The notes under the pieces were generated by a model. The model was not told the origin of the DNA, made no database searches, and saw nothing but the letters and a program-made list of their open reading frames with translations. Both the position numbers and the translations under genes were made by a program. A DNA stretch of 64,000 nucleotides, from assembly GCF_006175945.1 (NCBI RefSeq), contig NZ_VAJL01000001.1, positions 186,001 through 250,000 on the forward strand, written 5' to 3'. This DNA is from Chryseobacterium mulctrae. Its GTDB lineage: Bacteria; Bacteroidota; Bacteroidia; Flavobacteriales; Weeksellaceae. Below are positions 24,076-53,995 of the stretch, in pieces (the stretch's first letter is position 1; every line of letters begins with the position of its first letter).

Positions 24076-24390
24076 TTAAAACTTTATAACATTCTGTTAA
24101 TCTTCATTCAAAGTTATTTTCATTAATTTAGATGAGGATTTTTGTTTTTCACGAAGAAACCACTCATTTTGTCATTCTGAAAGAATCTAAACGATTAAAG
24201 AGTTTTTATAATTATCATTTTTTAATTGTATTTTAGAGATTCTGTCAGGACGGCAAACTGCGTATTAATTATCTGAAAAAATTGTAAATCTGACAAATAC
24301 CTAGCCCTGATTGTAGTGAAAATCCTTTTTTGAAAAAAAAGATTGCAACGAAAAGCAGGAAAAAGCTTCAAAAAAATTAAATTACAAAAT
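24076..24390. repeat. Intergenic repeats before dienelactone hydrolase gene
   Basis: These 315 non-coding bp hold two repeat-like blocks. One is a REP-like fragment with TGTCATTCTGA and AGATTCTGTCAGGA (about 24173-24250). The other is a CTAGCCCTGATTGTAGTG...GCAACGAAAAGCAGG block (about 24300-24358), which I recognise from memory as a family dispersed between genes in Chryseobacterium and relatives. It contains a short stem around AATCCTTTTTT/AAAAAAAAGATT. Confidence 0.55.
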
Positions 24391-38614: not shown

Positions 38615-41600
38615 TTACATCGTTTCCATTTTGAAACTCATACTTTCGATAACTTTCAATATTGCTTCAACTGTATCCATCGATGTTAAACAAGGAACAC
38701 CGTTTTCCACACTCATTCTTCTGATTTGGAAACCGTCTCTTTCAGACTGTTTTCCTTTCGTCATAGTGTTGACAACGTATTGTACTTTTCCTTTTTGAAT
38801 CAAATCGATTAAGTTGACGCTTTCCTCTCCTATTTTGTAACCAATTTTGCAAGGAATCCCTTGTTCTCCGAAGAATTTAGCCGTTCCTTCAGTTGCCCAG
38901 ATTCTGAAACCAACTTCATGGAATCTTGCAGCTAAATCTGCCGCTTCCTGCTTGTGTTTATCAGCCACCGTGAATAAGATTGAACCATGCATCGGAACTT
39001 TTCTTCCTGCTGCAACCAATCCTTTGTAAAGCGCTTTTTCTAAAGTCGTGTCTTTCCCCATAACCTCTCCTGTAGACTTCATTTCTGGACCTAAAGAGAT
39101 ATCAACTTTAGTTAATTTTGAGAAAGAGAATACAGGAACTTTTACGAAAACACCTTCTTTATTCGGAACCAATCCGTTTTTGTAACCTAAATCAGTCAGT
39201 TTTTGACCTAAAATTGCTTTTGTAGCAAGATTTGCCATCGGAACTTCCGTAATTTTAGATAAGAAAGGAACCGTTCTAGATGAACGTGGATTCACTTCAA
39301 TTACATATACATTTCCTTCGAAAAGAACGTACTGAATATTCATTAAACCAATTACTTTCAGTCCTTTAGCTAATCTCTGTGTATAATCTACCAAAGTATC
39401 AACTTCGCTTTGTGAAATATTTTGTGGAGGATACACTGCAATCGAGTCTCCGGAGTGAACTCCTGCTCTTTCGATGTGTTCCATAATTCCAGGAATGATC
39501 ACCGTTTCACCGTCGCAGATCGCATCAACTTCAATTTCTTTTCCTACCATATATCTGTCTACCAAAACCGGATGTTCTGGACTTGCGTCTACCGCAAATT
39601 CCATATAATGAGCCAATTCTGCTTCTGTATAAACAATTTCCATTGCTCTACCTCCCAAAACGTAACTTGGACGAACCAAAACCGGATAACCGATTTCGTT
39701 GGCAATTTTTATCGCTTCTTCTTTTGATGTTGAAGTTTTTCCTAGAGGCTGAGGAATCCCCATTTCCTGAAGGGCTTTTTCAAATTTGTCTCTGTTTTCT
39801 GCTCTATCCAAATCTTCCAGAGAAGTTCCTAAAATCTGCACTCCATGAGAAGCTAATTTATCTGCAAGGTTGATTGCTGTCTGTCCTCCGAACTGTACGA
39901 CAACTCCTTTTGGTTTTTCAAGCTCGATGATGTTCATTACATCTTCTTCCGTTAAAGGTTCGAAGTATAATTTATCTGAAATAGAGAAGTCTGTAGAAAC
40001 CGTTTCTGGATTATTGTTGATGATAATCGCTTCGTAACCCATCTCTTTGATTGCCCAAACTGAGTGAACCGTAGCGTAATCGAACTCAACTCCCTGTCCG
40101 ATTCTGATCGGACCTGAACCTAAAACGATTATTTTTTCTTTGTCTGAAGCAACACTTTCGTTTTCTTCTTCATACGTTCCGTAGAAATATGGCGTTTCAG
40201 ATTCGAATTCTGCAGCACAAGTATCTACCATTTTAAATACCGGCATTATTCCGTTTTCTTTTCTGAAATTGAAGATTTCACGCTCTTTTACATCCCAAAG
40301 AACTGCGATATTTACATCGGCAAAACCTAGTTTTTTAGCTTCTAATAAAATGTCTTTATTGAATTTATTTTCAGCGATCACTTTTTCGAAATCAATCAAT
40401 TTCTTGATTTTCCAGATGAAAAATTTATCTATTTTGCTCCATTCTACGATTTGTTCCCAATCATATCCTCTTCTTAAAGCATCTCCGATGATGAACAATC
40501 TTTCGTCATCACACACTCTGATTCTTCTTTCGATTTCTTCTGCCGTTAAAGCTGCAGCCTGTTTAGTTTTTAAACCAATATGTTTAATTCCTGTTTCCAA
40601 AGAACGGATTGCTTTTTGTAAAGACTCTTCGAAATTTCTTCCGATGGCCATTACTTCACCCGTCGCTTTCATCTGCGTTGACAATCTTCTGTCCGCTGTT
40701 TCGAATTTATCGAATGGGAATCTTGGGAATTTAGTTACTACATAATCCAAAGCCGGCTCGAAACAAGCGTAAGTTTTTCCTGTAACCGGATTCATAATTT
40801 CATCTAAAGTTAATCCTACCGCAATTTTCGCAGCAATTTTCGCAATCGGATAACCTGTTGCTTTTGATGCTAAAGCTGATGAACGAGAAACTCTTGGATT
40901 CACCTCAATGATATAATATTCGAATGAATGTGGGTCTAAAGCCAACTGTACGTTACATCCACCTTCAATTCCTAATGCTCTGATAATTTTTAATGAAGCA
41001 TTTCTCAACAACTGATATTCTCTGTCTGAGAGTGTCTGAGAAGGCGCCACAACGATTGAATCACCTGTATGAACTCCAACCGGGTCGATATTTTCCATGT
41101 TACAAACTACAATCGCATTGTCGTTTGCGTCACGCATTACTTCGTATTCAATTTCTTTGAAACCTGCAATTGATTTTTCAATAAGACATTGTGTAACAGG
41201 ACTGTATTTCAATCCTAATTCTGCAATTTCTTTCAATTCTGCTTCAGTCGCAGCAATTCCACCACCTGTTCCACCCATCGTGAAAGCAGGACGAACAATT
41301 ACCGGATATCCAATTTCATTAGCAAAATTAATTGCTCCTTCCACCGTATTTACGATATCAGATTCAGGAACCGGTTCGTTCAATTCTCTCATCAATTCAC
41401 GGAACAAATCTCTGTCTTCCGCTCTGTTGATGGCCGAAAGCGTAGTTCCAAGAACTTCAACTTTACATTCCTCAAGAATTCCTGATTTTTCCAATTCTAC
41501 CGCCATATTCAAACCTGTTTGTCCACCAAGAGTCGGTAAAAGTGCATCCGGACGCTCTTTTCTGATGATGTGACTTACAAACTGAAGTGAAATCGGCTCG

Positions 41601-41797
41601 ATATATACCTTATCCGCGATTTCAACATCCGTCATAATCGTTGCAGGATTTGAGTTAATCAAAATTACCTTGTAGCCTTCTTCTCTCAAAGACAGACAAG
41701 CCTGCGTTCCTGCGTAATCAAATTCTGCAGCCTGACCAATGATGATAGGTCCTGAACCGATTACTAAAATTGTTTTTATATCTGTACGTTTTGCCAT
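38615..41797 (-). CDS. carB: Carbamoyl-phosphate synthase large subunit
   Basis: The 1060-residue protein has two homologous ATP-grasp halves. Each opens with a PreATP-grasp signature ([20 protein letters not shown] near residue 12; [18 protein letters not shown] near 560) and an ATP-grasp region with [20 protein letters not shown] or [17 protein letters not shown]. The C-terminal MGS-like regulatory domain ([12 protein letters not shown] onward) is present. It makes carbamoyl phosphate for both pyrimidines and arginine from bicarbonate, ATP and the ammonia supplied by CarA. It lies 165 bp after carA with a 7-bp repeat array just before its ATG. Confidence 0.97.
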
Positions 41798-41802
41798 TTC
41801 TA

Positions 41803-41842
41803 AGTTAGATGTTAGATGCTAGAAGTTAGATGTTAGACTTTT
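41803..41842 (-). repeat. Heptameric repeat array upstream of carB
   Basis: On the minus strand, about five units of 7 bp (TCTAACA, TCTAACT, TCTAGCA, TCTAACA, TCTAACT) end a few bases before the carB ATG. A related array precedes carA. Confidence 0.65.
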
Positions 41843-41874
41843 AGCACTGTTTTTTATTTAGATTTAATTTACAC

Positions 41875-41950
41875 ATTGTCATTCCGAGGAATCGAGGAAT
41901 CTTTTATTATCCTAGATTCTTCACTACACTTCGCTTCGTTCTGAATGACA
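41875..41950. repeat. REP-like palindromic element
   Basis: The element is bounded by TTGTCATTCCGA and CTGAATGACAAA inverted ends with ATTCTTCACTACACTTCG inside. The same design occurs at 49606-49687. It lies between carA and carB, so it is transcribed in the operon. Confidence 0.65.
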
Positions 41951-41962
41951 AACTTAATGTTT

Positions 41963-43039
41963 TTACTTATTCTTAAAATCCTCCATCAACGTGATGAAAT
42001 CATCAAACAAGTAGTTTGCATCTTCAGGACCTGGACTTGCTTCCGGGTGATACTGAACTGAGAAGCAAGGGTGAATTTTGTGTTTCAGACCTTCGTTTGT
42101 TCTGTCGTTCAATGCGATGTGCGTTTCAATTAAATCTGTTTCTTTAAGACTTTCCTGGTCTACTGCATAACCGTGATTTTGGGAAGTAATTGCCACTTTG
42201 TTTTTCTCTAAATCTAAAACCGGGTGATTTCCTCCTCTGTGTCCGAATTTTAACTTGAAAGTTTTTGCTCCACAAGCCAAACCGATCAATTGGTGTCCTA
42301 AACAGATTCCGAAGATTGGAACTTTTCCTAATAATCCACGGATCATTTCTAAAGCTCCTTGATTATCTTCCGGGTCTCCAGGACCGTTTGATAGCATAAT
42401 TCCATCTGGATTCATCAATAAAATTTCCTCTGCAGTTGTATCATGTGAAACCACTGTGATGTCGCAATTTCTTTGAGACAACTCTCTGATAATTCCTAAT
42501 TTAGAACCAAAATCCACAAGTACTACTTTAAGTCCTCTTCCCGGGTTTGCATAAGGTGTTTTTGTAGAAACCTGCTCCACCTGATTGGTTGGAAAAGTCG
42601 TTCCTTTTAGCTCTGCAACTACTGTGCTTTCGTCTGCATCAGCGTTTACGATTTTTCCTTTCACAACTCCGTGGTTACGAAGAATTCTTGTCAGTCTTCT
42701 TGTATCGATTCCTGAAATTCCTGAAAGTTTTTTCTTTTTAAATAATTCATCTAAAGTAATCTGAGTACGGAAATTCGACGGCAAATCACAAAGTTCTTTT
42801 ACGATAAGACCTTTGATAGCCGGCTCTATACTCTCATAATCATCTCTATTAATCCCATAGTTTCCGATAAGCGGATAGGTCATACAAACAATCTGACCGC
42901 AGTAAGATGGGTCAGAAATAAGTTCTTGGTACCCTGTCATTCCGGTATTGAAAACCACTTCTCCTGCAGTTTCCAATTCTGCTCCGAAACCTTCTCCATG
43001 AAACACTTCACCGGACTCCAGTATTAATTTTTTCTTCAT
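41963..43039 (-). CDS. carA: Carbamoyl-phosphate synthase small subunit (glutaminase)
   Basis: The 358-residue protein has the CPSase small-chain N-terminal domain (LILESGEVFHGEGFG, then GEVVFNTGMTGYQELISDPS) and a class I glutamine amidotransferase. Catalytic Cys lies in FGICLGHQLIGLACG, with His and Glu in VQYHPEASPGPED. It releases ammonia from glutamine and channels it to CarB. Located between pyrB and carB in the same direction; 186 bp separates it from pyrB, including a CCCCTCC-aaa-GGAGGGG hairpin. A heptameric array precedes its start. Confidence 0.97.
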   Translation of the reverse strand: MKKKLILESGEVFHGEGFGAELETAGEVVFNTGMTGYQELISDPSYCGQIVCMTYPLIGNYGINRDDYESIEPAIKGLIVKELCDLPSNFRTQITLDELFKKKKLSGISGIDTRRLTRILRNHGVVKGKIVNADADESTVVAELKGTTFPTNQVEQVSTKTPYANPGRGLKVVLVDFGSKLGIIRELSQRNCDITVVSHDTTAEEILLMNPDGIMLSNGPGDPEDNQGALEMIRGLLGKVPIFGICLGHQLIGLACGAKTFKLKFGHRGGNHPVLDLEKNKVAITSQNHGYAVDQESLKETDLIETHIALNDRTNEGLKHKIHPCFSVQYHPEASPGPEDANYLFDDFITLMEDFKNK

Positions 43040-43042
43040 TTT

Positions 43043-43082
43043 TAAATTAGATATTAGATTTTAGAAATTAGAAGTTAGACTT
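43043..43082 (-). repeat. Heptameric repeat array upstream of carA
   Basis: On the minus strand, about five 7-bp units of the type NTCTAAN (GTCTAAC, TTCTAAT, TTCTAAA, ATCTAAT, ATCTAAT) end 5 bp before the carA ATG. It is more diverged than the carB array. Confidence 0.6.
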
Positions 43083-43163
43083 CTTCATTCTGTTATTTTA
43101 CTTCTTATTTTTTCTATTTTACTTTTTAAACCACCCCGTCAAAAATTCTTTGAATTTTCGCCA

Positions 43164-43180
43164 CCCCTCCAAAGGAGGGG
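43164..43180. repeat. GC-rich hairpin between pyrB and carA
   Basis: A perfect 7-bp CCCCTCC / GGAGGGG stem with loop AAA sits beside a second small stem (AAAATTC-TTT-GAATTTT, about 43141-43158). It lies inside the pyrB-carA spacer, so it may affect transcript processing. The sequence resembles an intergenic repeat family common in flavobacteria (from memory). Confidence 0.5.
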
Positions 43181-43225
43181 AGTTTGTGGGCGTTTATTTT
43201 TCTCGAAACTCGTATCCCGAATCTC

Positions 43226-44116
43226 TTATTTAAAAGTGTATCCTTCTTTTTCTAAGGCTTCTTTTAAAATTGCCATTCTCGCGAAAACGCCGTTTTGCAT
43301 TTGTTTGAAAATTCTTGAGCGTTCGCATTCTACCAAGTCTGTATCAATTTCTACTCCTCTGTTGATTGGAGCTGGATGCATGATAATCGCTTCTTTTTTC
43401 ATCGCTTTTTCTCTTTCTTTCGTCAAACCATATTTTCTGTGGTATTCTGAAGCAGAGAAGCTCATTTTCGCATCGTGTCTTTCGTGTTGAATCCTCAATA
43501 ACATCAAAACATCAACTTCTTTAATCAATTCATCAACAGATAAATAAGTCCCGTTAATTAAAGCTCCTTCATCAAACCATTGTTCTGGTCCTGAGAAATA
43601 AACTTTGGCACCTAATCTTCTTAATGCTTCTGCATTTGAATTAGCAACTCGGCTGTGTTTTACATCTCCTACAATTCCTATTTTTAAACCTTCAAATTTT
43701 CCAAATTCCTGATAGATTGTCATCAAGTCTAACATACATTGAGAAGGATGATTTCCTGTTCCGTCTCCTCCGTTGATAACGGGAATTGTAATATTTTTTA
43801 ATTCATCAAAATATCTGTCTTTCTTATCTCTGATTACAACCAGATTTACACCAAGACTTTCAATCGTTTTTACCGTATCATAAAGACTTTCACCTTTATT
43901 AACAGAACTGTTTGCCGCATCAAAAGGAACCACCTGTAATCCTAATTTTCTTTCGGCAATATCAAAACTTGTTTTCGTTCGTGTACTGTCTTCAAAGAAA
44001 AGATTTGAGCAAAAAACTTCTCCTTCAATTTTAGCAGTTTTTCCATTAGCAAAAGCCAGTGCTTCTGTTACTATACTGTTGATTCTCTCGGTACTTAGTT
44101 CTGTAATCGTAAACAT
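43226..44116 (-). CDS. pyrB: Aspartate carbamoyltransferase catalytic subunit
   Basis: The 296-residue protein joins carbamoyl phosphate to aspartate, the committed pyrimidine step. The carbamoyl-phosphate loop ([20 protein letters not shown]), the [17 protein letters not shown] segment and the C-terminal [16 protein letters not shown] are intact. Length is slightly short, as in the class without a regulatory chain; no pyrI gene is present. It is the first gene of pyrB-carA-carB. Its 5' leader carries a short ORF and a terminator (see the leader entries), so expression is probably attenuated. Confidence 0.96.
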
Positions 44117-44141
44117 AATATCTTAATTTTTTACAAAAAAA

Positions 44142-44164
44142 AAGCGAAGAAAATATCTTCGCTT
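44142..44164 (-). terminator. Leader attenuator terminator of pyrB
   Basis: A perfect 9-bp stem (AAGCGAAGA / TCTTCGCTT on the plus strand) with a 5-base loop is followed on the minus strand by nine consecutive T. It lies between the presumed promoter and the pyrB ATG, 25 bp before that start. The 5' arm overlaps the stop codon of the leader ORF. Confidence 0.8.
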
Positions 44165-44234
44165 AAAATAAATAAATATCGTAAAGGGCGTCTACGCCCG
44201 GTAATTCTAATGATATAAATACTGTGTTATTCAT
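44163..44234 (-). CDS. pyrB leader peptide ORF (23 aa)
   Basis: ATG 44234 to TAA 44163 encodes 23 residues (MNNTVFISLELPGVDALY and five more). The RNA just before the stop is U-rich, and the stop lies within the first arm of the terminator. A GGGCGT-ct-ACGCCC stem (44186-44199) lies inside the ORF and could pause RNA polymerase. The layout mirrors the E. coli pyrBI leader, where low UTP lets the ribosome follow the polymerase and block the terminator. Translation has not been shown. Confidence 0.6.
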   Translation of the reverse strand: MNNTVFISLELPGVDALYDIYLF

Positions 44235-44359
44235 TAGGTGCAAAGATATAACATTTTGGCGAACTAACAAAATCAAAATTCCTATAAAATTAAAAAATCT
44301 TAATCTCTCTTTATTTTCATTTTTAAATACTACTTTTGTTAAAACTCAACCTCATTTTT

Positions 44360-44821
44360 ATGGATTTAAAAGACAAAATGATTCTCAGCATCATTCAGGA
44401 AGACTCTACCTATTCTGTGAAAGAAATTTCAGAAAAGATTGGTCTTACCTTTACTCCGACTTATGAACGTATCAAACAGCTGGAAAAACAGGGAATCATC
44501 GAAAAGTATGTAGGACTTTTGAACCGTGAAAAACTGGGTTTAAATATTGTTGTTTATTGCAATGTTCGTTTGAAAGAACAATCTAAAAAAGTGCTTGAAA
44601 CATTTGAGAAAAACATTATGCAGCACGATGAAGTTCAGGAAATAATCAGCCTTTCAGGCGAATATGATTATATGCTGAAAATTATCGCTAAAGACATCAA
44701 TTCTTACAATAATTTCACGGTAAATGTAATTTCAAATATTCCTAATATCGGACAATATCATAGTTCTATCGTACTTCACGAGGTTAAAAAATCTACTAAA
44801 TTTAAGATTGATTTAGGTTAA
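44360..44821 (+). CDS. Lrp/AsnC-family transcription regulator
   Basis: ATG 44360 (MDLKDKMILSIIQEDSTYSV) is the family start; the frame from 44336 adds eight residues. The 153-residue protein has an N-terminal helix-turn-helix (SVKEISEKIGLTFTPTYERI, then KQLEKQGIIEKYVGL) and a C-terminal RAM ligand-binding domain (SGEYDYMLKIIAKDINSYNN). It is divergent from the pyrB operon and convergent toward argH, so it may regulate either. The effector amino acid is unknown. Confidence 0.88.
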   Translation: MDLKDKMILSIIQEDSTYSVKEISEKIGLTFTPTYERIKQLEKQGIIEKYVGLLNREKLGLNIVVYCNVRLKEQSKKVLETFEKNIMQHDEVQEIISLSGEYDYMLKIIAKDINSYNNFTVNVISNIPNIGQYHSSIVLHEVKKSTKFKIDLG

Positions 44822-44838
44822 AAAATATTTAATCATTT

Positions 44839-44930
44839 GAAAATGCTTCGACTTCGCTCAGCATGACATTTCTAATACTAAAGTCATTTTCCAGCGGTGT
44901 CGTGCTAAGCGGAATCGAAGCATTTAAGAA
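44839..44930. repeat. REP-like inverted repeat
   Basis: Arms of the type AAATGCTTCGACTTCGCTCAGC and GCTAAGCGGAATCGAAGCATTT (each about 22 bp, imperfect complements) enclose about 50 bp. It lies between the convergent lrp-like gene and argH and could end transcription from both sides. Confidence 0.6.
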
Positions 44931-44949
44931 TAGTTTTAGCTTAAAACCA

Positions 44950-46254
44950 TTAACCTAACAATTTGTTTTTTAGTTTATTAAACTGATATTCTATTTTATC
45001 CAGACAAAGATTCCCAATACTTCCCTGATGGGTATGATTTAGCTTTCCTATTTCAAAATCAAACTCATTATTTTCAATCTCCTGCCCTACTTTTACATAA
45101 GCATCACGGAATGAACTTCCGTTTTTTACTTCTTCATTAATTTTCTCTACACTGAAAAGATATTTATACTTTTCGTCTTCAAGAATTCCATCTTTCACCT
45201 GAATATTTGGTAATGTATAACTTAAAATTTCCAAACATTCTTTTAAAGAATCAATTGCTGGGAAAAGAATTTCTTTCGTCAGCTGCATATCTCGGTGATA
45301 GCCTGATGGAAGATTGTTCGTCAACAAAATAAACTCATTCGGTAACGACTGAATTCTGTTGCAACGGGCACGAACCAACTCAAAAATATCAGGATTTTTC
45401 TTGTGAGGCATAATGCTGCTTCCCGTTGTAAATTCTTTAGGAAAGCTTATAAAATCAAAATTCTGACTTAAATACAGACAAACATCATAAGAAAATTTAC
45501 CTAAAGTTCCTGCCAAAGTTGCCATTGCCATCGCCAGCATTTTCTCTGATTTCCCACGCGTCATTTGAGCATAAACTGAATTATAGTTCATCGACTGAAA
45601 ACCTAAATTATAGGTCGTACTCTCACGGTCAATCGGGAAAGACGAACCATATCCTGCAGCGGAACCCAGTGGATTTTTATTAATGATATTTTTAACCGAA
45701 AATAACATTTCGACATCATCTAACAACGCTTCTGCATAAGCTCCAAACCATAATCCAAACGATGATGGCATCGCAATCTGTAAATGCGTATAACCCGGAA
45801 GCAAAACATTTTTATGCTGTTCTGCCAGTTTAATTAAGATTTGAAAAAATTCATCGGTCAAAGCTGTGATTTCACGGATCTCATCAACCAAATACAATTT
45901 AATATCTAATAAAACCTGATCATTTCTCGAACGTGCTGTGTGAATTTTCTTTCCTGTATCTCCTAATTTTTCAATTAAGATAGATTCAACTTGCGAGTGA
46001 ATGTCTTCCGCAGTTTTATCGATTTCAAAAGTTCCATTTTCGATATCTTCTAAAATCTCTCCCAAAACAGATAACATCTGCTTTGATTCTTCATTCGAAA
46101 TAATTCCGACTTCTGCCAACATTGTACAATGCGCCATCGAACCTTGAACATCGTATTTTGCCAAACGCTCATCAAAGTCCAGGTCTTTCCCAACTGTAAA
46201 TTTGTTAACTAATATATTAGTGGCATTGTTGTCTTTTTGCCATATTTTTTTCAT
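44950..46254 (-). CDS. argH: Argininosuccinate lyase
   Basis: The 434-residue enzyme performs the last arginine step, splitting argininosuccinate to arginine and fumarate. The fumarase/aspartase signature GSSIMPHKKNPD, the N-terminal DIHSQVESILIEKLG and the HTARSRNDQVLLDIKLY segment are all present. It is somewhat shorter than the usual 455-460 residues at the C-terminus. It is the last gene of the arginine cluster; a repeat-filled 267-bp gap separates it from the deacylase gene. Confidence 0.95.
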   Translation of the reverse strand: MKKIWQKDNNATNILVNKFTVGKDLDFDERLAKYDVQGSMAHCTMLAEVGIISNEESKQMLSVLGEILEDIENGTFEIDKTAEDIHSQVESILIEKLGDTGKKIHTARSRNDQVLLDIKLYLVDEIREITALTDEFFQILIKLAEQHKNVLLPGYTHLQIAMPSSFGLWFGAYAEALLDDVEMLFSVKNIINKNPLGSAAGYGSSFPIDRESTTYNLGFQSMNYNSVYAQMTRGKSEKMLAMAMATLAGTLGKFSYDVCLYLSQNFDFISFPKEFTTGSSIMPHKKNPDIFELVRARCNRIQSLPNEFILLTNNLPSGYHRDMQLTKEILFPAIDSLKECLEILSYTLPNIQVKDGILEDEKYKYLFSVEKINEEVKNGSSFRDAYVKVGQEIENNEFDFEIGKLNHTHQGSIGNLCLDKIEYQFNKLKNKLLG

Positions 46255-46275
46255 AAAATTCTTTTTTTATTTAAA

Positions 46276-46479
46276 ATTTTCTTTTGTCTTGAAACAAAAG
46301 AAACAAAAATTCAAGACTGGAAACTCCGACTAAAAATTAAAATTAAATCCTAAAATCCCCAAAACTTGCGCGAATTCAACATTTGTTCCTCAATTTAAAA
46401 TTAGTGTCGCGCTTCAAACAGTGGGAATTTTTTAACGGATTAAATTTCAATTTTCTTAACGCCTCCGTTTCCTAAGTCA
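46276..46479. repeat. Dispersed repeat of about 200 bp, copy A
   Basis: It begins TTTTCTTTTGTCTTGAAACA and continues through TCAAGACTGGAAACT, CCTAAAATCCCCAAAACT and AAACAGTGGGAATTT to CTTAACGC. It is about 80 percent alike by eye to 50904-51103, with a CTTTTGT/ACAAAAG stem at its start. It fills the gap between argH and the argE-like gene. Confidence 0.75.
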
Positions 46480-46521
46480 ATATTTTTGCGTTTAGGAAAC
46501 TTCCATCATCCAGCTTCCCGC

Positions 46522-47604
46522 CTATAAAACTTTTTCTAAAATTTGGATGTAAATCTCAATTCCTTCCGCAATTTCTTCGATGAAAATAAATTCATCCGCA
46601 GTGTGCGAGCGCCTACTGTCACCAGGACCGATTTTTACCGATGTACAAGGAATGATTGCTTGATCGGATGAAGTTGGAGAGCCATAAGTTGTCCTACCAA
46701 TTTCCAAACCAGCCTGTACGAATGGATGTTCCATTTCGATTTTTGATGAATTTAATCTGAAAGACCTTGCCGTTAAAGTCGATTTCATCTGCGATTGAAT
46801 GATTTCAAACGCTTCTTTATTAGAATATTCATCCGTAACTCTCACATCCAAAGTAAAAGCACACGATTCTGGAACGACATTATGCTGAACTCCGGCATGA
46901 ATTCCCGAAAGTGTCACCTTAACCTCTCCCAAATAATCCGAAACTTTTGGAAATTTAAAGCTTAAAATTTGCTGCAAATCTTCCATGCATTTTACAATCG
47001 AATTATCATCATTCGGATGAGCGGCGTGAGAAGGAGTTCCTTTCATTTCTCCATCAATGACCAAAAGTCCTTTTTCCGCAATCGCCAGATTCATCTGCGT
47101 TGGTTCCCCTACAATGGCAAGCTCCACATTCGGGAGCTGCGGAAATAAAGCTTCAATCCCATCAAACCCTGAAATCTCCTCCTCTGCCGTCAAAGCAATA
47201 ACTAAATTATATTTTAAATCTTCTTTATCAAAAAAATGCAAAAAAACCTGCGCCATCGAAACCAGAGAAGCCCCCGCATCATTACTTCCCAATCCGAATA
47301 ACTTTCCATCCTTCTCAATGGCAAGAAACGGATCTAAAGTGTAAGCTTTATTTGGTTTTACCGTGTCATGATGGGTATTCAACAAAATTGACGGCTTGAA
47401 AACATCAAAATTTTTGTTCACCGCCCAGATATTATTTTTAAAACGTTTTGTTGGAATCTGATGTTTTTTGAAAAAATTTTCAATCTCCATCGACGTATTA
47501 AATTCATCCTTGCTGAATGACGGAATCTCAATCAGTTTTTTCAACAAATCTACTGCGTTATTCAGTAATTCTTCTTTATTATAAACAGATTTCAGTTCCT
47601 GCAT
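46522..47604 (-). CDS. argE: N-acyl-ornithine/citrulline deacylase (M20 peptidase, ArgE type)
   Basis: The 360-residue M20-family metallohydrolase has the first metal ligand in LNTHHDTVKPN and the second in GSNDAGASLVSM. Catalytic Glu lies in ALTAEEEISGFDG, with later ligands in AIVGEPTQMNLAIAEKG and a C-terminal SHTADEF. In pathways using an acyl-ornithine carbamoyltransferase, this enzyme removes the acyl group from acyl-citrulline. It overlaps the kinase gene upstream by 26 bp. Whether the acyl group is acetyl or succinyl depends on the neighbouring carbamoyltransferase. Confidence 0.88.
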   Translation of the reverse strand: MQELKSVYNKEELLNNAVDLLKKLIEIPSFSKDEFNTSMEIENFFKKHQIPTKRFKNNIWAVNKNFDVFKPSILLNTHHDTVKPNKAYTLDPFLAIEKDGKLFGLGSNDAGASLVSMAQVFLHFFDKEDLKYNLVIALTAEEEISGFDGIEALFPQLPNVELAIVGEPTQMNLAIAEKGLLVIDGEMKGTPSHAAHPNDDNSIVKCMEDLQQILSFKFPKVSDYLGEVKVTLSGIHAGVQHNVVPESCAFTLDVRVTDEYSNKEAFEIIQSQMKSTLTARSFRLNSSKIEMEHPFVQAGLEIGRTTYGSPTSSDQAIIPCTSVKIGPGDSRRSHTADEFIFIEEIAEGIEIYIQILEKVL

Positions 47605-48373
47605 GATGATTTTCTATATGGTTTTTTAGTTCGGTTTCTTTAATTAAGAATACCTTATTGACTTTATTTTTCACAGCTCCCAAAGCGTTTTCTAACTTTG
47701 GAAGAATTCCTTTATGAAGTTTCCCTTCCTCTTTTAAGATTGAAAACTCTCCTTCGGAAATATTTTTTATAACAGATTCTGGATTGTTTACATCTTCCAA
47801 AACGCCTTCTTTATCGAAACAATACAACAATTCAACATCATATTTTATTGATAAAGCCTGAGCAATCACCGAAGCAATCGTGTCTGCATTTGTATTAAAA
47901 AGATGTCCTTTTTTATCATGAGTAATCGCTGAGAATACAGGAACCAATTCAAGCTTCAATAACTTTGAAATCAACTTTCTGTTGACGCTTTTTTCAGTAA
48001 TATCTCCTACAAACCCGAAATCTATTTCGGCGTGTTCTCTTTTTTTAGCCTTAATTAAGTTGGCATCAGCCCCCGAAAACCCCATTGCTTTGCATTTTTT
48101 ATGCTGAAGTTTCGCCACAATATTTTTGTTGATTCCTCCCGCATATACCATTGCTACAATATCCAATGTATCTTTATCTGTGATTCTTCGTCCGTTAATC
48201 ATTTTTTGTTCAACGCCTAGTTTATCAGCCAACGTGGTCGCTAATTTCCCCCCTCCATGAACCAGAATTTTCTTTTCCTGAATATTAGAAAACTGCTCCA
48301 GAAATTCGTTCAATAATTCCTCATCATCAATTAAAGCACCGCCGATTTTTATAATGTATAATTTTTCTTTCAT
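47579..48373 (-). CDS. argB: N-acetyl(or succinyl)glutamate kinase
   Basis: The 264-residue amino-acid kinase has the N-terminal Lys in IIKIGGALIDDEELL, the glycine loop VHGGGKLATTLADKLG and the C-terminal VIAQALSIKYDVELLYCFDK. The usual NAG-kinase length is 260-300. It phosphorylates the gamma carboxyl of acylglutamate. In Bacteroides the equivalent enzyme is thought to use succinylglutamate. It is translationally coupled to the deacylase gene by overlap. Confidence 0.9.
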   Translation of the reverse strand: MKEKLYIIKIGGALIDDEELLNEFLEQFSNIQEKKILVHGGGKLATTLADKLGVEQKMINGRRITDKDTLDIVAMVYAGGINKNIVAKLQHKKCKAMGFSGADANLIKAKKREHAEIDFGFVGDITEKSVNRKLISKLLKLELVPVFSAITHDKKGHLFNTNADTIASVIAQALSIKYDVELLYCFDKEGVLEDVNNPESVIKNISEGEFSILKEEGKLHKGILPKLENALGAVKNKVNKVFLIKETELKNHIENHHAGTEICL

Positions 48374-48390
48374 TACAAACCTTTTTTGAG

Positions 48391-48462
48391 AACCTTGTCA
48401 AGGTTTAAAACCTTGACAAGGTTTGCGATTGTAAACCTCATAGATTTTAAAACCTATGAGGT
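48391..48462. repeat. Two AACCT...AGGTT palindromes between argF' and argB
   Basis: The first (48391-48423) is a perfect 15-bp stem AACCTTGTCAAGGTT / AACCTTGACAAGGTT with loop TAA. The second (48434-48462) is an imperfect relative, ACCTCATAGAT... / ACCTATGAGGT. Same design as the carB terminator at 38549. Positioned inside the gene cluster, it may cut transcription between argF' and argB. Confidence 0.7.
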
Positions 48463-48469
48463 CTAGTTG

Positions 48470-49426
48470 TTAAGAATTCACTTCATCCAAAATTTCAGAG
48501 AAAACAGCCTGAGCTGAGAAAATTCGGTTTTTTGCCTGTTGATAAATGATAGAGTTTTTACCGTCCATCACCTCATCACTCAATTCTACATTTCGACGAA
48601 CCGGAAGACAGTGCATTACTTTTGCCTGATTGGTGTTTTCCAGTTTTTCATTCGTCAACATCCAGTTTTCTTTCACTTCAGGCATTGTTGCATAATCATC
48701 AAAAGACGACCAGTTTTTTATATAAATAAAATCTGCATCTTTCAACGCTTCATCCTGATTATGAATCACTTTTACATCTTTTGTGAAATTTTTATCCAAA
48801 TCATACCCTTCCGGATTCGCAATTACCAACTCAACATCCATTTCCTGCATCCATTCTGCAAAAGAATTTCCAACCGCATGAGCAATAGGTTTAATGTGAG
48901 GAGCCCAGGTCAACACCACTTTCGGCTTATGTTCTTTTTTCCAGTTTTCTGTAATCGTGATACAATCTGCCAAACTTTGCAAAGGGTGACGAGTTGCAGA
49001 TTCCAAAGAGATAACCGGAACTTTTGCATGTTGCTCGAACTGGCTTAAAATACTTTCGTTAACATCATCTTCCTTGCTTTTCATTCCTGCAAAACAACGC
49101 ACTGCAATGATGTCACAATATTGATTTAATACTTCGATAGCATCTTTGATATGTTCAACCGTATCTCCGTTCATTACAGCACCGTCCGCAAATTCCAGAT
49201 TCCAGGCCTCTTGAGCTGCGTTTAACGTTAATACATTTAAGCCTAAATTTTGCGCTGCAATCTGACTGCTTAAACGGGTTCTCAAACTTGAATTTAAAAA
49301 TACGAGTCCGATGGTTTTTCCTTTTCCCTTTTCGGTTTCCGAAAGAGGGTTTTCTTTAATTTGTAAAGCTTTTTTTATAATGTCTTGTAAGTTTTTAACA
49401 TCACTTACAGAGGTGAATTTTTTCAT
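48470..49426 (-). CDS. argF': N-acyl-L-ornithine carbamoyltransferase (ArgF' type)
   Basis: The 318-residue member of the acetyl/succinyl-ornithine carbamoyltransferase group has a carbamoyl-phosphate loop reading NSSLRTRLSSQIAAQNLG rather than S-T-R-T-R. The HCLPVRRNVELSDEVMDG segment and RCFAGMKSKEDD are typical of the group. The specificity loop reads VMNGDTVEHI with Val90 where acetyl-specific enzymes have Glu and the Bacteroides succinyl enzyme has Pro (from memory of published structures). This favours succinyl-ornithine as substrate. Confidence 0.85.
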   Translation of the reverse strand: MKKFTSVSDVKNLQDIIKKALQIKENPLSETEKGKGKTIGLVFLNSSLRTRLSSQIAAQNLGLNVLTLNAAQEAWNLEFADGAVMNGDTVEHIKDAIEVLNQYCDIIAVRCFAGMKSKEDDVNESILSQFEQHAKVPVISLESATRHPLQSLADCITITENWKKEHKPKVVLTWAPHIKPIAHAVGNSFAEWMQEMDVELVIANPEGYDLDKNFTKDVKVIHNQDEALKDADFIYIKNWSSFDDYATMPEVKENWMLTNEKLENTNQAKVMHCLPVRRNVELSDEVMDGKNSIIYQQAKNRIFSAQAVFSEILDEVNS

Positions 49427-49528
49427 TTGGAAATTTTTATTTTTTCAATGGACAAACGGAATATCCATTTCATTTTGAATTGATTTTAAAGATTTTTTAT
49501 CTTACATGTTATCTGAGTTTTTAACGCT

Positions 49529-49602
49529 AGGTTCGCGAAGTTTTTTTTAATTAAACTTGAAAACATTTTCGTTCGCAAAGGCGTTTCACTCAGCAATTGA
49601 AG
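49529..49602. repeat. Dispersed intergenic repeat, copy 2 of 2
   Basis: The block ends GTTCGCAAAGGCGTTTCACT, identical to the end of 27125-27200, with a GGTTCGCGAAG-T-run before it. Confidence 0.6.
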
Positions 49603-49605
49603 GTT

Positions 49606-49687
49606 TTGCTTGTCATTCTGACGAAGGAAGAATTTCAACTATATATTTAAAGATTCTTCACTCCACTTCGTTCCATTCAGAATGACA
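49606..49687. repeat. REP-like palindromic element
   Basis: Ends TTGTCATTCTGA and CAGAATGACAGA are inverted relative to each other, with ATTCTTCACTCCACTTCG inside. It is the same family as 41875-41950. It lies between argD and argF'. Confidence 0.65.
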
Positions 49688-49707
49688 GAACGCATAATTT
49701 TCACAGT

Positions 49708-50847
49708 TTAAATATTCTCCAATACTTCTTTTAAAGCATTAATAAAAAGATCAGTTTCTTCTTTTTTAATGTTAAGCGCCGGAAGAATCCTCAACACAGC
49801 CTTATCATTAGAGTTTCCTGTGAAAATATGATGATTGTACAACAGGCTATTCCTCACTTCCGAGCAATCCCTGTCGAGTTCAATCCCAATCATCAAGCCT
49901 TTCCTTCGGATGGTTTTAATATGTGGAAAATCTTTAATTTCATTTTCAATATATTCGCCCATTTCCTGAGCATTTTCGATGAGATTTTCATCTTTCATCA
50001 CATCTAGTACAGCAATCGCAGCAACACAAGCTAAATGATTCCCGCCAAAAGTTGTTCCCAATAAGCCATTGCTTGCTTTAAATTTAGGATGAATCAATAC
50101 GGCACCGATTGGGAAACCATTCCCCATTCCTTTTGCTGTTGTGATGAGATCTGCTTCAATTCCAAATTCCTGATGAGCAAAGAAATATCCGCTTCTTCCA
50201 TAACCTGACTGAACTTCATCTAAAATCAAAGCCGCATCGTATTTTTCGCACAGTTCTTTGATTTTCGTTAAAAATTCAACCGTTGGAATCATAATTCCTC
50301 CAACGCCTTGAATTCCTTCAATAATTACAGATGAGATTTCACTTCCTTGATTTTCAAAAACGGCTTCAAGCTGTTCTATATTATTCCATTCAGACTTAAT
50401 AAATCTTTCGTCATAGTTTACTGGAGCGACAATTTTAGGATTATCAGTCACAGAAACCGCTGCTGAAGTTCTTCCATGAAATGAACGTGAAAAATACAAT
50501 ACTTTGCTTTTTCCGTTATGGAAAGAAGCCAGTTTTAAAGCATTTTCGTTCGCTTCAGCTCCTGAATTACACAGAAATAAATTATAATCTTCCAAACCCG
50601 AAAGTTTTCCTAATTTATCAGCTAGTTCAGTTTGCAATTCATTCTGAACCGAATTTGAATAGAAAGATATTTTATCTAACTGGTTTTTTAATTGAGTTTG
50701 ATAATGCGGATGGTTGTGCCCGATAGAAATTACCGCGTGACCTCCGTAAAAATCAAGGTATTTTTCTCCTTTATCGTCCCAAAGAAATGATCCCTGAGCT
50801 TTTACCGGATTTATGTTGAATAATGGATATACATTGAATAAATTCAT
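49708..50847 (-). CDS. argD: Acyl-ornithine aminotransferase
   Basis: The 379-residue class III PLP aminotransferase has NSGAEANENALKLA near the PLP phosphate site, LILDEVQSGYGRSGYFFAHQ with the conserved Asp, the PLP Lys in LITTAKGMGNGFPIGAV, and GGNHLACVAAIAVL. It converts acylglutamate semialdehyde to acylornithine using glutamate. It lies between argC (324 bp away, with a dispersed repeat) and argF'. Confidence 0.92.
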   Translation of the reverse strand: MNLFNVYPLFNINPVKAQGSFLWDDKGEKYLDFYGGHAVISIGHNHPHYQTQLKNQLDKISFYSNSVQNELQTELADKLGKLSGLEDYNLFLCNSGAEANENALKLASFHNGKSKVLYFSRSFHGRTSAAVSVTDNPKIVAPVNYDERFIKSEWNNIEQLEAVFENQGSEISSVIIEGIQGVGGIMIPTVEFLTKIKELCEKYDAALILDEVQSGYGRSGYFFAHQEFGIEADLITTAKGMGNGFPIGAVLIHPKFKASNGLLGTTFGGNHLACVAAIAVLDVMKDENLIENAQEMGEYIENEIKDFPHIKTIRRKGLMIGIELDRDCSEVRNSLLYNHHIFTGNSNDKAVLRILPALNIKKEETDLFINALKEVLENI

Positions 50848-51170
50848 TTTCTAGTTGATTGTTGTTGGTTGATAGTTGCTGGTTTTACAACTTCATTTTA
50901 TTATATTTTCTTTTGTCTTGAAACAAAAAAAACAAAAGTTCAAGACTGGAAACTTCCGCTAAAAATTTAAATTAAATCCTAAAATCCCCAAAACTCGCAC
51001 GAATTGAAGATTTGTTCTTCGATTGAAAGCTTGCCTCGTGCTCAAACAGTGGGAATTTCTTAACGGATTAAATTTCAATTTTCTTAACGCTCCATTTTCC
51101 TAGGACGGTTTTGATGCAAGCTTTTAAAATTCACTATTGACTTATTGACAATTCACATTTTAATTCATAT
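50848..51170. repeat. Intergenic gap with dispersed repeat copy B
   Basis: This 323-bp gap holds copy B of the 200-bp repeat (50904-51103) and, next to argD, a GTTGATTGTTGTTGGTTGATAG low-complexity stretch in two parts. Similar GTTGATAG text occurs near 21820. No gene. Confidence 0.7.
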
Positions 51171-52160
51171 CTAAAACGCAATTGGTTTTAAATTCAGTCC
51201 TGAATTTTCTTCCCAACCCATTGCAATATTCACGTTTTGAACCGCCTGTCCGGAAGCTCCTTTCAACAAATTGTCAATCGCTGAGTGAATAACCGCAACA
51301 TTTCCACTCTTTTCTATATGAATCATACAGCGATTGGTATTGACAACCTGTTTTAAATCAATTGCTTTTTCACTTACCTTTACAAAAGGTTCATCTGCAT
51401 AAAAATCCTTAAACAATTGATTGATATCTGAAAGTTCTAAATCTGTTTTTACCGTGGAACTCGTAAAAATCCCTCTTGCAAAATCCCCTCTCCATGGAAC
51501 AAAATTCAGACTGATCTCATTTTTATTAAAAGAAACTAACTGCTGTAAGATCTCATCTACATGTTGATGTGTCAGAGTTTTATAAGCCGAAATATTATCA
51601 TTCCTCCAGGTAAAATGGGTCGTCGGCTGCAAAGACTGACCCGCTCCTGTAGAACCTGTAATTCCCGTTGAGTGCACTTCATTCAACAAACCTTTTTGAG
51701 CTAATGGAAGCAAAGCCAATTGAATTGCCGTTGCAAAACATCCAGGATTGGCAATACTTTTCGCTCCTAAGAGTTGTTTTTTGTTGATTTCAGGTAATCC
51801 GTAGATAAAATTTCTGTTTGCGAAATCTCCCTCTAAACGAAAATCATTTCCTAAATCGATGACCAACGTTTCATCTTTTACCCCATTTTGAGCTAGCCAA
51901 TTCTGACTTTCTTTGTGAGGAAGACATAAAAATAAAATATCTACCTCTTCAGGCTGATCTGTTAAAACCATTTCACAAACCGTCGCTAAATCCGGGTACA
52001 GATCTGAAATTCTTGTCCCCGAATTTGAACGACTATATAAAAAACTCAAAGACACATTGGGATGAAAAGCCAACAGACGAACCAGTTCGCTTCCTGTGTA
52101 ACCGTTGGCTCCGATGATTCCTGCTGTTTTTATTTCTTTTTGATTAATCATTTTTTTCAA
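51171..52160 (-). CDS. argC: N-acyl-gamma-glutamyl-phosphate reductase
   Basis: The 329-residue protein has the NADP-binding GIIGANGYTGSELVRLL at the N-terminus and the catalytic Cys in ANPGCFATAIQLALLPL. GSTGAGQSLQPTTHF and a C-terminal NLLKGASGQAVQN are also present. Two start codons are possible (M1 and M4). It reduces acylglutamyl phosphate to the semialdehyde. It follows argG after 67 bp containing two small hairpins. Confidence 0.95.
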   Translation of the reverse strand: MKKMINQKEIKTAGIIGANGYTGSELVRLLAFHPNVSLSFLYSRSNSGTRISDLYPDLATVCEMVLTDQPEEVDILFLCLPHKESQNWLAQNGVKDETLVIDLGNDFRLEGDFANRNFIYGLPEINKKQLLGAKSIANPGCFATAIQLALLPLAQKGLLNEVHSTGITGSTGAGQSLQPTTHFTWRNDNISAYKTLTHQHVDEILQQLVSFNKNEISLNFVPWRGDFARGIFTSSTVKTDLELSDINQLFKDFYADEPFVKVSEKAIDLKQVVNTNRCMIHIEKSGNVAVIHSAIDNLLKGASGQAVQNVNIAMGWEENSGLNLKPIAF

Positions 52161-52227
52161 TAATTATTTTTGATAGGATTTTCATCCTACCCTGATTTAA
52201 GTCGTCCCTTCGGGACTTCCCGTTGAA

Positions 52228-53424
52228 TTAATTTATATTTTGATTAATCTGATGATATATATTTAAAGAATTGCTTACGATTTTCGTGTAGCCTTTCACA
52301 TCTTCGCCCGTCCATGCTCTATTTGCTTCGCCATAGCTTCCGAATTTATCAGACATTAGATCATACTTAGATTCAATTCCATTTAAGATAAATCTATAGG
52401 GATGAAGCGTTACAAATACTTTTCCGCTAACTGTTTTCTGAGAATCATCTAAGAAAGACTCGATATTTCTCATCACAGGATCTAAGAAAAGTGCTTCGTG
52501 AAGCCAGTTTCCGTACCAATCAGACAATTGAGATTTCATCATCTGCTGATATTTTGAAAGCGTATGTTTCTCCAATAAATGATGCGCTTTGATGATCACA
52601 GACGCCGCAGCTGCTTCAAACCCTACTCTTCCTTTAATTCCGACAATCGTGTCTCCAACGTGGATATCACGACCGATTCCGTAAACAGAAGCTAATTTTT
52701 CAATCTTTTGAATTGCATAAACCGAATGTTCAAAATTTTCTCCATTAACTGCTACAACTTCACCATTTTTAAACTCGATTTCCAATTCTGAAGGCTGAGT
52801 TTCTTTAATTTGAGATGGAAAAGCTTCTTCCGGCAAATAGTTTCTTGAAGTCAAGGTTTCTTTTCCGCCAACTGATGTTCCCCAAAGTCCTTTATTTACA
52901 GAATATTGTGCTTTTTGGAATTCCATTTCATAACCGTGGTTTTTCAAAAACTCAATTTCTTCTTCACGGGATAAAGCCATATCACGAATTGGCGTAATAA
53001 TTTCTACATTCGGACACATTACCTGGAAGATCAAATCGAAACGAACTTGGTCATTTCCCGCACCTGTGCTTCCGTGAGCAATCGCATCAGCTCCAACTTC
53101 AATCGCAAACTTTGCAATTTTCTGAGCCTGAATCGTACGTTCTGCACTTACAGACAAAGGATAGGTATTGTTTTTCAACACATTACCGAAAATCAAATAC
53201 TTTACACAAGAATTGTAATAATCTTCCTGAGCATCTACGCACCTGTATTCTTTCACCCCAAGATTGAAGGCTTTTTTTTCCAGTTCTTTTTCTTCTTCTT
53301 TAGAAAAACCTCCGGTATTTACAGTCACTGCATATACCTCATATCCAAGTGTTTCACTCAGATATTTGGCACAGTAAGAGGTATCTAAACCTCCGCTAAA
53401 CGCTAAGATTACTTTCTTGCTCAT
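52228..53424 (-). CDS. argG: Argininosuccinate synthase
   Basis: ATG 53424 (MSKKVILAFSGGLDTSYCAK) is the family start; the longer frame from 53451 adds nine unconserved residues. The 398-residue protein has the PP-loop AFSGGLDTS, AIAHGSTGAGNDQVRFD, and the ARGS-type end regions. It joins citrulline and aspartate using ATP. It overlaps the GNAT gene upstream by about 29 bp, so the two are coupled. First biosynthetic gene after the acetyltransferase. Confidence 0.95.
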   Translation of the reverse strand: MSKKVILAFSGGLDTSYCAKYLSETLGYEVYAVTVNTGGFSKEEEKELEKKAFNLGVKEYRCVDAQEDYYNSCVKYLIFGNVLKNNTYPLSVSAERTIQAQKIAKFAIEVGADAIAHGSTGAGNDQVRFDLIFQVMCPNVEIITPIRDMALSREEEIEFLKNHGYEMEFQKAQYSVNKGLWGTSVGGKETLTSRNYLPEEAFPSQIKETQPSELEIEFKNGEVVAVNGENFEHSVYAIQKIEKLASVYGIGRDIHVGDTIVGIKGRVGFEAAAASVIIKAHHLLEKHTLSKYQQMMKSQLSDWYGNWLHEALFLDPVMRNIESFLDDSQKTVSGKVFVTLHPYRFILNGIESKYDLMSDKFGSYGEANRAWTGEDVKGYTKIVSNSLNIYHQINQNIN

Positions 53425-53995
53425 TTTGATATTGATTTTCGGGTTGATCATTTACAACCTCATTTACTTTATTATTATCGGGAACGAAAAGCATTGCTGT
53501 ACAAAGACAGTTCTTACGTTCCTTTTTCATTAAAATTTCATAATTCACACAGTTCTTGCAACCGTTCCAAAATTCCTCATCTTGTGTCAATTCAGAATAA
53601 ATTACAGGTTTGTACCCTAAATCACTGTTAATTTTCATCACAGCAAGACCTGTTGTCAAGCCAAATATTTTCGCATTCGGAAATTTCTCTCTTGACAAAG
53701 CAAACACTCTATCTTTGATCAAGGTTGCAATACCTCCATGCCTGAATTTTGGAGAAACAATTAATCCAGAGTTAGCCACAAACTGACCATGCGACCAGGT
53801 TTCAATATAACAGAAACCCACCCACTCTCCATTTTCAGTGGCTACAACAGCATTGCCTTCTGAAATCTTTTTACTTAAATATTCTATAGAACGTTTTGCA
53901 ATACCCGTCCCTCTTCGCTGTGCAGAATCATACATTTCCTGCTGTATTTCACTCACATACATTAGATGCATGGACGAGGAAATTTCTATTTCCAT
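53396..53995 (-). CDS. GNAT acyltransferase heading the arginine cluster (putative N-acylglutamate synthase)
   Basis: The 199-residue protein has one GNAT domain: NAVVATENGEWVGFCYIETW, LIVSPKFRHGGIATLIKDRV at the acyl-CoA loop, and NSDLGYKPVIYSELTQ near its end. A Cys-rich stretch follows (NGCKNCVNYEIL...NCLCTA). It is first in the arginine operon and overlaps argG, so it is the natural candidate for the missing acylglutamate synthase; no argA or argJ is present. The donor could be acetyl- or succinyl-CoA. Supported by position, not by residues. Confidence 0.7.
   Translation of the reverse strand: MEIEISSSMHLMYVSEIQQEMYDSAQRRGTGIAKRSIEYLSKKISEGNAVVATENGEWVGFCYIETWSHGQFVANSGLIVSPKFRHGGIATLIKDRVFALSREKFPNAKIFGLTTGLAVMKINSDLGYKPVIYSELTQDEEFWNGCKNCVNYEILMKKERKNCLCTAMLFVPDNNKVNEVVNDQPENQYQNEQESNLSV

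Follow-up and report, generated by a model that had tools for sequence, protein, structure and literature searches.

In Chryseobacterium mulctrae, a short open reading frame (ORF) ends at an intrinsic terminator immediately upstream of pyrB, which raises the question of whether a member of the Bacteroidota controls pyrB by a ribosome-dependent attenuator of the kind known from E. coli pyrBI. We examined this locus in the window, which here means the whole 64,000 nt stretch of DNA analysed, and in its relatives. Among the matches listed from the open-licence PMC literature, we found none that describes such a pyrB attenuator for the Bacteroidota. The passages concerned describe a carA motif RNA in beta-proteobacteria (PMC8632094) and short ORFs in long 5′ UTRs of Bacteroides thetaiotaomicron, which are reminiscent of leader peptides but, within those passages, do not include pyrB (PMC7366714).

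The pyrB leader in the window

The minus strand of the window from 44271 to 44135 reads, in order, TTTG, 19 nt, TATCTTTG, 6 nt, ATG, a 23-codon ORF with its TAA, and a terminator. The parts of the locus and the genes behind it are as follows.

44268..44271, minus strand: promoter-like -33 element TTTG (from the sequence)
44241..44248, minus strand: promoter-like -7 element TATCTTTG, matching the Bacteroidota sigma-A consensus TAnnTTTG (from the sequence)
44234..44236, minus strand: predicted transcription start region, +1 at about 44236 (from the position of the box)
44163..44234, minus strand: leader ORF of 23 codons plus TAA, MNNTVFISLELPGVDALYDIYLF (ATG at 44234, TAA at 44165-44163)
44207..44237, minus strand: possible 5′ hairpin CTAATGA...TCATTAG over the leader start codon (from folding)
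44186..44199, minus strand: candidate pause hairpin GGGCG-TAGA-CGCCC inside the ORF (from the sequence and folding)
44166..44185, minus strand: U-rich stretch between hairpin and terminator, a candidate UTP-sensitive pause region (from the sequence)
44142..44164, minus strand: intrinsic terminator (attenuator) AAGCGAAGA/TCTTCGCTT, 9 pairs with a loop of 5 (from the sequence)
44135..44141, minus strand: T run of the terminator, 7 T (from the sequence)
43226..44116, minus strand: pyrB, aspartate carbamoyltransferase catalytic chain, 296 aa, Bacillus-like (protein match)
41963..43039, minus strand: carA, presumed second gene of the controlled unit (protein match)
38615..41797, minus strand: carB, presumed third gene of the unit (NF003671, carbamoyl-phosphate synthase large subunit)

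A sequence-only reading had placed a 23-codon minus-strand ORF at 44234-44163, with its TAA overlapping a 9-bp stem 25 bp before pyrB, and all of these are found there: the 5′ arm of the terminator shares two bases with the end of the stop codon (TAA), and the stem lies 25 nt from the pyrB ATG (44116). Two details of that reading are modified, and the promoter-like elements are additional to it. Nine T had been counted behind the stem, two of which are the last bases of the stem itself, leaving the 7 T that follow it. The GGGCGT/ACGCCC stem reported within the ORF does exist as a hairpin, but with the five pairs of GGGCG-TAGA-CGCCC instead of six, because a sixth pair would leave a loop of 2 nt.

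The leader folds more stably than its shuffled versions (z = -5.68; 0/200 shuffles as good). The combined signature was defined as the box, an ATG 5-7 nt further on and an ORF of 10-45 codons that runs to a terminator. It is found a single time on the two strands of the 64-kb window and not at all in 60 dinucleotide shuffles of the window. The leader frame remains open further upstream to a TTG at 44276, beyond the promoter-like elements. The nearest upstream gene in the orientation of the leader is argH, which ends at 44950. An Lrp/AsnC-type regulator gene starts at about 44360 on the opposite strand and runs away from the leader, so that the terminator does not belong to a neighbouring gene of the leader's strand.

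From the promoter-like elements, open frame, hairpin, U enrichment and terminator observed in this order, we infer the start site, the pausing, the coupling, UTP as the signal and the dependence on translation in the following scheme. RNA polymerase would start 0-2 nt before the leader ATG, and a ribosome would begin on the 5′ end of the transcript. The GGGCG/CGCCC hairpin together with the U-rich stretch would make the polymerase pause about a dozen nucleotides before the terminator. With plentiful UTP, the polymerase would leave the pause early and the ribosome would lag behind, allowing the terminator to fold and transcription to end. With scarce UTP, the polymerase would linger, giving the ribosome time to catch up and arrive at the stop codon by the foot of the stem, where it would cover the 5′ arm, block the terminator and let transcription continue into pyrB.

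Some further elements of the window were noted. The gap behind argH (44860-44940) holds a palindromic element with CTGAGCGAAGTCGAAGCA that looks like a dispersed intergenic repeat, and the Flavo-1 RNA motif (Rfam RF01705) is located at 24299-24366 on the plus strand.

Conservation across the Weeksellaceae

The family searched corresponds to the Weeksellaceae, and the named proteins most similar to the window's PyrB come from Chryseobacterium. A PyrB match was found in 98/98 genomes of the genus, one of which (G063) carries a broken gene, and in 166 of the 197 sampled family genomes, where some of the weakest matches are probably not PyrB. We read the upstream regions of 101 PyrB-found loci: 53 from the genus, including that of the window, 40 hand-picked for their spread over other genera, and 8 from a further search. 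A partial gene (L122) and three other carbamoyltransferases (L123-L125) were excluded before counting.

The sequence-only reading had proposed looking among relatives for a short ORF that ends in the stem. The layout of box, ATG, ORF and terminator is present in 97 of the 101 family loci, the window's included, and in 25/26 genera, and the frame is open despite widely differing peptides; the layout is not due to chance. All four departing loci (L118-L121) belong to a single genus, g17. At three of them (L118, L120 and L121), the terminator is crossed by a frame of 75-84 codons that is open from stop to stop without a clear start, possibly a long variant of the leader, and at L119 a script search found no frame-crossed terminator before pyrB.

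We also looked for the layout before other pyrimidine genes of the window's genome. A terminator is present before pyrEF, but the promoter-like box lies downstream of it, and the script found no terminator before pyrD or pyrC. At L187 of this genome, pyrE and pyrF occupy one open frame of 465 codons and are thus probably fused.

Promoter-like elements and the predicted start site

In all, 152 loci were parsed, comprising the 97 PyrB-found loci and 55 loci found by a pattern scan (see below); the parser demands a stem core of the CGAA/CGAG type, a criterion taken from sequences already read. The -7 box is TAnnTTTG in all 152. The gap between box and ATG is 6 nt in 147 of these loci, 5 nt in four and 7 nt in one. 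TTTG is located 18-21 nt before the -7 box in 68/97 family loci and is absent at that distance in 29/97.

In Flavobacterium psychrophilum, the consensus TAnnTTTG is described as a box spanning -12 to -5 (PMC9723704). By this rule the leader ATG would be located at about +3 or, with a purine start, at +1 or +2, and the leader mRNA is therefore predicted to be nearly leaderless, with its ATG at about +1 to +3. The sequence at the predicted start is TAATG or CAATG in 90/97 loci. According to the passages of the same study that bear on this point, leaderless mRNAs account for 5.5% of the 890 genes with mapped starts in F. psychrophilum, and the Bacteroidota group is described as being without Shine-Dalgarno sequences (PMC9723704).

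The frame is maintained but the peptide is not

The 97 leaders were reduced to 20 representatives with mutual identity below 70%. In 20/20 representatives, the ATG frame stays open to within 17 nt of the terminator core, a tolerance chosen so as to keep L071; dinucleotide shuffles give an expectation of 5.8, and multiplying the single probabilities yields about 1e-11. The other two frames do so in only 2/20 and 4/20. Under tighter limits, the ATG frame reaches the core within 12 nt in 19/20 and within 8 nt in 18/20 representatives. The same openness to within 17 nt of the core holds for 97/97 parsed PyrB-found loci.

The position of the stop codon is likewise restricted. It falls 1-7 nt before the CGAAG core in 86/97 loci and, among the representatives, in 12/20 against 0.9 expected. 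Two loci stop earlier (L071 at 17 nt, and L074), and nine of the 97 stop inside or behind the stem. As the frame is kept and the peptide is turned over, the constraint seems to be that a ribosome is able to reach the terminator, not that a particular peptide is kept.

Hairpin, U-rich stretch and test for an antiterminator

Over the 20 representatives, the best hairpin in a fixed zone of the leader exceeds that of shuffled sequences (Stouffer z 7.35, mean z 1.64). In 19 representatives, the distance from the end of its 3′ arm to the core is 21-29 nt. Taken singly, leaders give a weak signal: L069 and L070 do not surpass their shuffled versions, and L080 has its best hairpin elsewhere. Among the stems are GGGCG/CGCCC, GGCA/TGCC, ATGGCT/AGCCAT, GAGGAA/TTCCTC, CGGTT/AACCG and CAACTCA/TGAGTTG. 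Different stem sequences thus occupy a similar place, which suggests that the pairing outlives the sequence. Between the hairpin and the terminator, T is enriched, with a fraction of 0.48 in the last 21 nt before the core versus 0.28 in the rest of the leader (Wilcoxon P 9e-5, 20 representatives).

A hairpin over the start codon, CTAATGA/TCATTAG, was considered as a second family-wide element, and would have pointed to a switch of start site like that of E. coli pyrC. The data do not support this candidate (Stouffer z 1.4; 4/20 representatives at 5%). The hairpin is common in the genus, and a similar form occurs in Kaistella and some others, but it is not family-wide.

Pairing of the leader with the 5′ arm of the terminator is not above that of shuffles over the 20 representatives (Stouffer z -1.07), with L077 as the one exception (z 2.90), and hence there is no general sign of an antiterminator. 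Nor was a run of one control codon found in the leader peptides inspected. Taken together, these two results favour direct blocking by the ribosome, as in pyrBI, over amino-acid attenuation.

They also bear on the possibility that the leader is a ribosome-dependent attenuator which senses not UTP but slow codons, i.e. amino-acid supply, or the overall rate of translation. The strongly kept open frame would suit such a device as well, Ile occurs in 20/20 representative peptides and Phe and Gly in 19/20 each, and the relevant passages on F. psychrophilum, in which pyrB is not mentioned, infer leader-peptide attenuation for amino-acid operons (PMC9723704). However, codons for Ile, Phe and Tyr are expected from a U-rich stretch, and they form no run of one codon. 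Attenuators of amino-acid operons need an alternative antiterminator pairing, of which the 20 representatives give no general sign. Moreover, slow translation at this leader would presumably favour termination, the wrong sense for a scarce product. We consider a signal other than UTP unlikely on these grounds, and the pyrBI kind of attenuation remains the preferred reading.

Absence of PyrR and the type of PyrB

PyrR was not detected over the curated cut-off of 138 bits in any of 100 family genomes (G000 included). Weak matches to the PyrR profile, of at most 37 bits, occur in 80 of them and were taken as other phosphoribosyltransferases. In a sample of the order, 11 of whose 99 genomes are family genomes, PyrR is over the cut-off in 65. 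The leader is not general to flavobacteria: of 20 loci hand-picked from other families of the order and class, 19 have a pyrR gene that precedes pyrB in the same orientation.

The enzyme differs as well. Over long matches, the PyrB of the window is at most 46% identical to PyrB from outside the family, and one piece of 65 residues reaches 52%. It scores 348 bits with 3r7d and 347 bits with 2at2, the latter of which we take to be the Bacillus subtilis enzyme, versus about 134 bits for chains that we take to be from E. coli. These scores and identities suggest that the Weeksellaceae PyrB is likely foreign in origin. A search of viral contigs for PyrB found no relative.

Nucleotide constraint within the genus

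Among the leaders of the genus, third codon positions are 94% identical versus 47% at the fourfold sites of pyrB. Where leader codons vary, the changes are mostly nonsynonymous, and silent positions are fixed. Both observations point to a constraint on nucleotides, part of which the start-codon hairpin accounts for. This conservation at the genus level exceeds what a pyrBI-type mechanism obviously needs, and the leader RNA may have a second function besides attenuation.

Such constraint, together with the start-codon hairpin of the genus and of some other genera, would be expected of an RNA that binds a small molecule or a protein, either a riboswitch or a PyrR-like target, and in which the ORF is incidental. 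Between genera, however, the sequence and loops turn over and it is the frame that stays open. No Rfam family exceeds its cut-off at the leader, the four weak matches all being below theirs, and none of the 100 family genomes has a PyrR over the cut-off. We therefore regard a bound element with an incidental ORF as highly improbable. The pattern of codon variation within the genus is also at odds with a nascent-peptide arrest switch, in which the leader peptide would stall its own ribosome in response to a metabolite. The ORF is short enough, and related leaders share endings such as NIYFI or NNIFYI, but peptides differ greatly between the 20 groups below 70% nucleotide identity, and an arrest peptide has accordingly a very slim chance of being the explanation.

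Linkage of the leader to pyrB and carAB

We scanned the contig collection of 84,980 species genomes with the pattern TTTG-N6-ATG-N45..75-ACGAAG-N4..14-CTTCGT7, which omits the stem core of the window's own genus. The scan returned 60 stretches, 55 of which lie directly before pyrB (PyrB 60.9-78.1% identical to that of the window); these 55 loci are evidence only for the link to pyrB and not independent evidence of the layout. The other five, titled Pyrinomonadaceae, Proteobacteria, Clostridia, Anaerolineaceae and Bacillus, have no PyrB match in the available stretch and no TAnnTTTG box. Records found via the leader are titled Chryseobacterium, Epilithonimonas, Kaistella, Halpernia, Cloacibacterium, Riemerella, Cruoricaptor and Planobacterium, genera that we assume to belong to the Weeksellaceae, and two are titled 'Weeksellaceae bacterium'. 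One metagenome-assembled genome (JAPUEB01) carries two pyrB genes (L134 and L174), each with its own leader, and may derive from two mixed strains.

The promoter-like elements, the ORF and the terminator do make up a complete small unit. That this unit is a gene in its own right, encoding a small RNA or microprotein and ended by its own terminator while pyrB is transcribed from another start, is scarcely credible given that the gap between terminator and pyrB is only 25 nt, that a further TAnnTTTG occurs between the leader ATG and pyrB in 3/93 loci and not in the window, and that leader and pyrB stay together in 55 of the 60 pattern matches.

A carA match lies downstream of the leader in 50 of the 55 pattern-found relatives. 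Four of the remaining five have less than 1.1 kb of DNA there, and in the fifth (L141) none was found. In many relatives, carB is located further downstream. In the window, the strand that carries carA-carB also holds, upstream of pyrB, an arginine cluster (argH, argB, N-acetylornithine carbamoyltransferase, an argD-like gene and argG; 38615-53451 in all), so that the enzymes of shared carbamoyl phosphate would sit behind a pyrimidine switch. The gap between pyrB and carA (43040-43225) contains a palindromic repeat (CTCCCCTCC..GGAGGGG with GACGGGGTGG), and similar elements are found behind pyrB in several loci of the same genus.

Comparison with known attenuators

In E. coli K-12 MG1655, pyrL is a 44-codon ORF with GCGTCTGAAAAAAGACGC, followed by TTTTTCTT and then by a terminator stem that starts 88 nt after the ATG; its stop codon is located 46 nt beyond the start of the stem, and pyrB 30 nt after the terminator stem. 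The two systems thus share, in the same order, a promoter, a leader ORF, a hairpin, a U-rich stretch, an intrinsic terminator overlapped by the ORF, and pyrB 25-30 nt further on. The sequence-only reading had likened the window to pyrBI, and this likeness is supported by the common order of parts in pyrL as well as by the conserved layout with its open frame and the absence of antiterminator pairing.

The two systems also differ. The leader of the window has 23 codons instead of 44, its ATG is nearly at the predicted 5′ end, and its hairpin is 21 nt from the stem compared to 38 nt in E. coli. T is not enriched in the last 21 nt of the E. coli leader (0.29 versus 0.36 in the rest), because the U-run sits closer to the hairpin. 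The E. coli pyrBI start has a U run for reiterative initiation, whereas the predicted Weeksellaceae start (TAATG/CAATG) has none. In the Weeksellaceae the stop codon is usually at the foot of the stem, in contrast to the 46 nt past its start in E. coli; the nine leaders with a stop inside or behind the stem more closely resemble pyrL, whose ORF runs through the terminator (PMC4824070). The Weeksellaceae leader is further distinguished by a Bacteroidota-type promoter and a Bacillus-like PyrB, and the gene after pyrB is carA in the window but pyrI in E. coli.

The pyr operon of Bacillus is also preceded by a site of premature termination, which there depends on PyrR; in the Weeksellaceae no PyrR was detected over the cut-off (0/100), and the leader matches no Rfam family over its cut-off. 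The attenuators of trp, his and ilv share with the leader described here a short translated ORF before a terminator, but the Weeksellaceae leaders have neither antiterminator pairing, as judged from 20 representatives, nor a run of control codons.

Implications

Judging from the sequence and its comparison, pyrB in C. mulctrae is quite probably controlled by transcription attenuation as known from E. coli pyrBI (pyrL), and so, probably, are carA-carB behind it. The finding is wider than first noted: the leader appears to be a family-wide, compact and nearly leaderless attenuator of the pyrBI kind, and the proposed mechanism is well supported by its anatomy and evolution. How it arose is more tentative. 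The chances seem about balanced that, in the Weeksellaceae, PyrR was lost, a Bacillus-like PyrB was acquired from outside, and a compact UTP-sensing attenuator of ~100 nt, with its leader ORF on a leaderless mRNA, arose independently, which would be convergent with E. coli pyrBI. The linked absence of PyrR, different type of enzyme and new switch would open to study the replacement of one regulatory logic by another.

The leader provides a candidate nucleotide-sensing attenuator for the Bacteroidota, one that would need ribosome and polymerase to be closely coupled, in bacteria that are described as having no Shine-Dalgarno sequences. As it comprises only ~100 nt, is predicted to be nearly leaderless and is found in many named cultured species, coupling and UTP sensing are directly testable with small reporters. 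If the mechanism holds, transcription and translation in Bacteroidota would be tightly coupled before a transcript has grown beyond 70 nucleotides.
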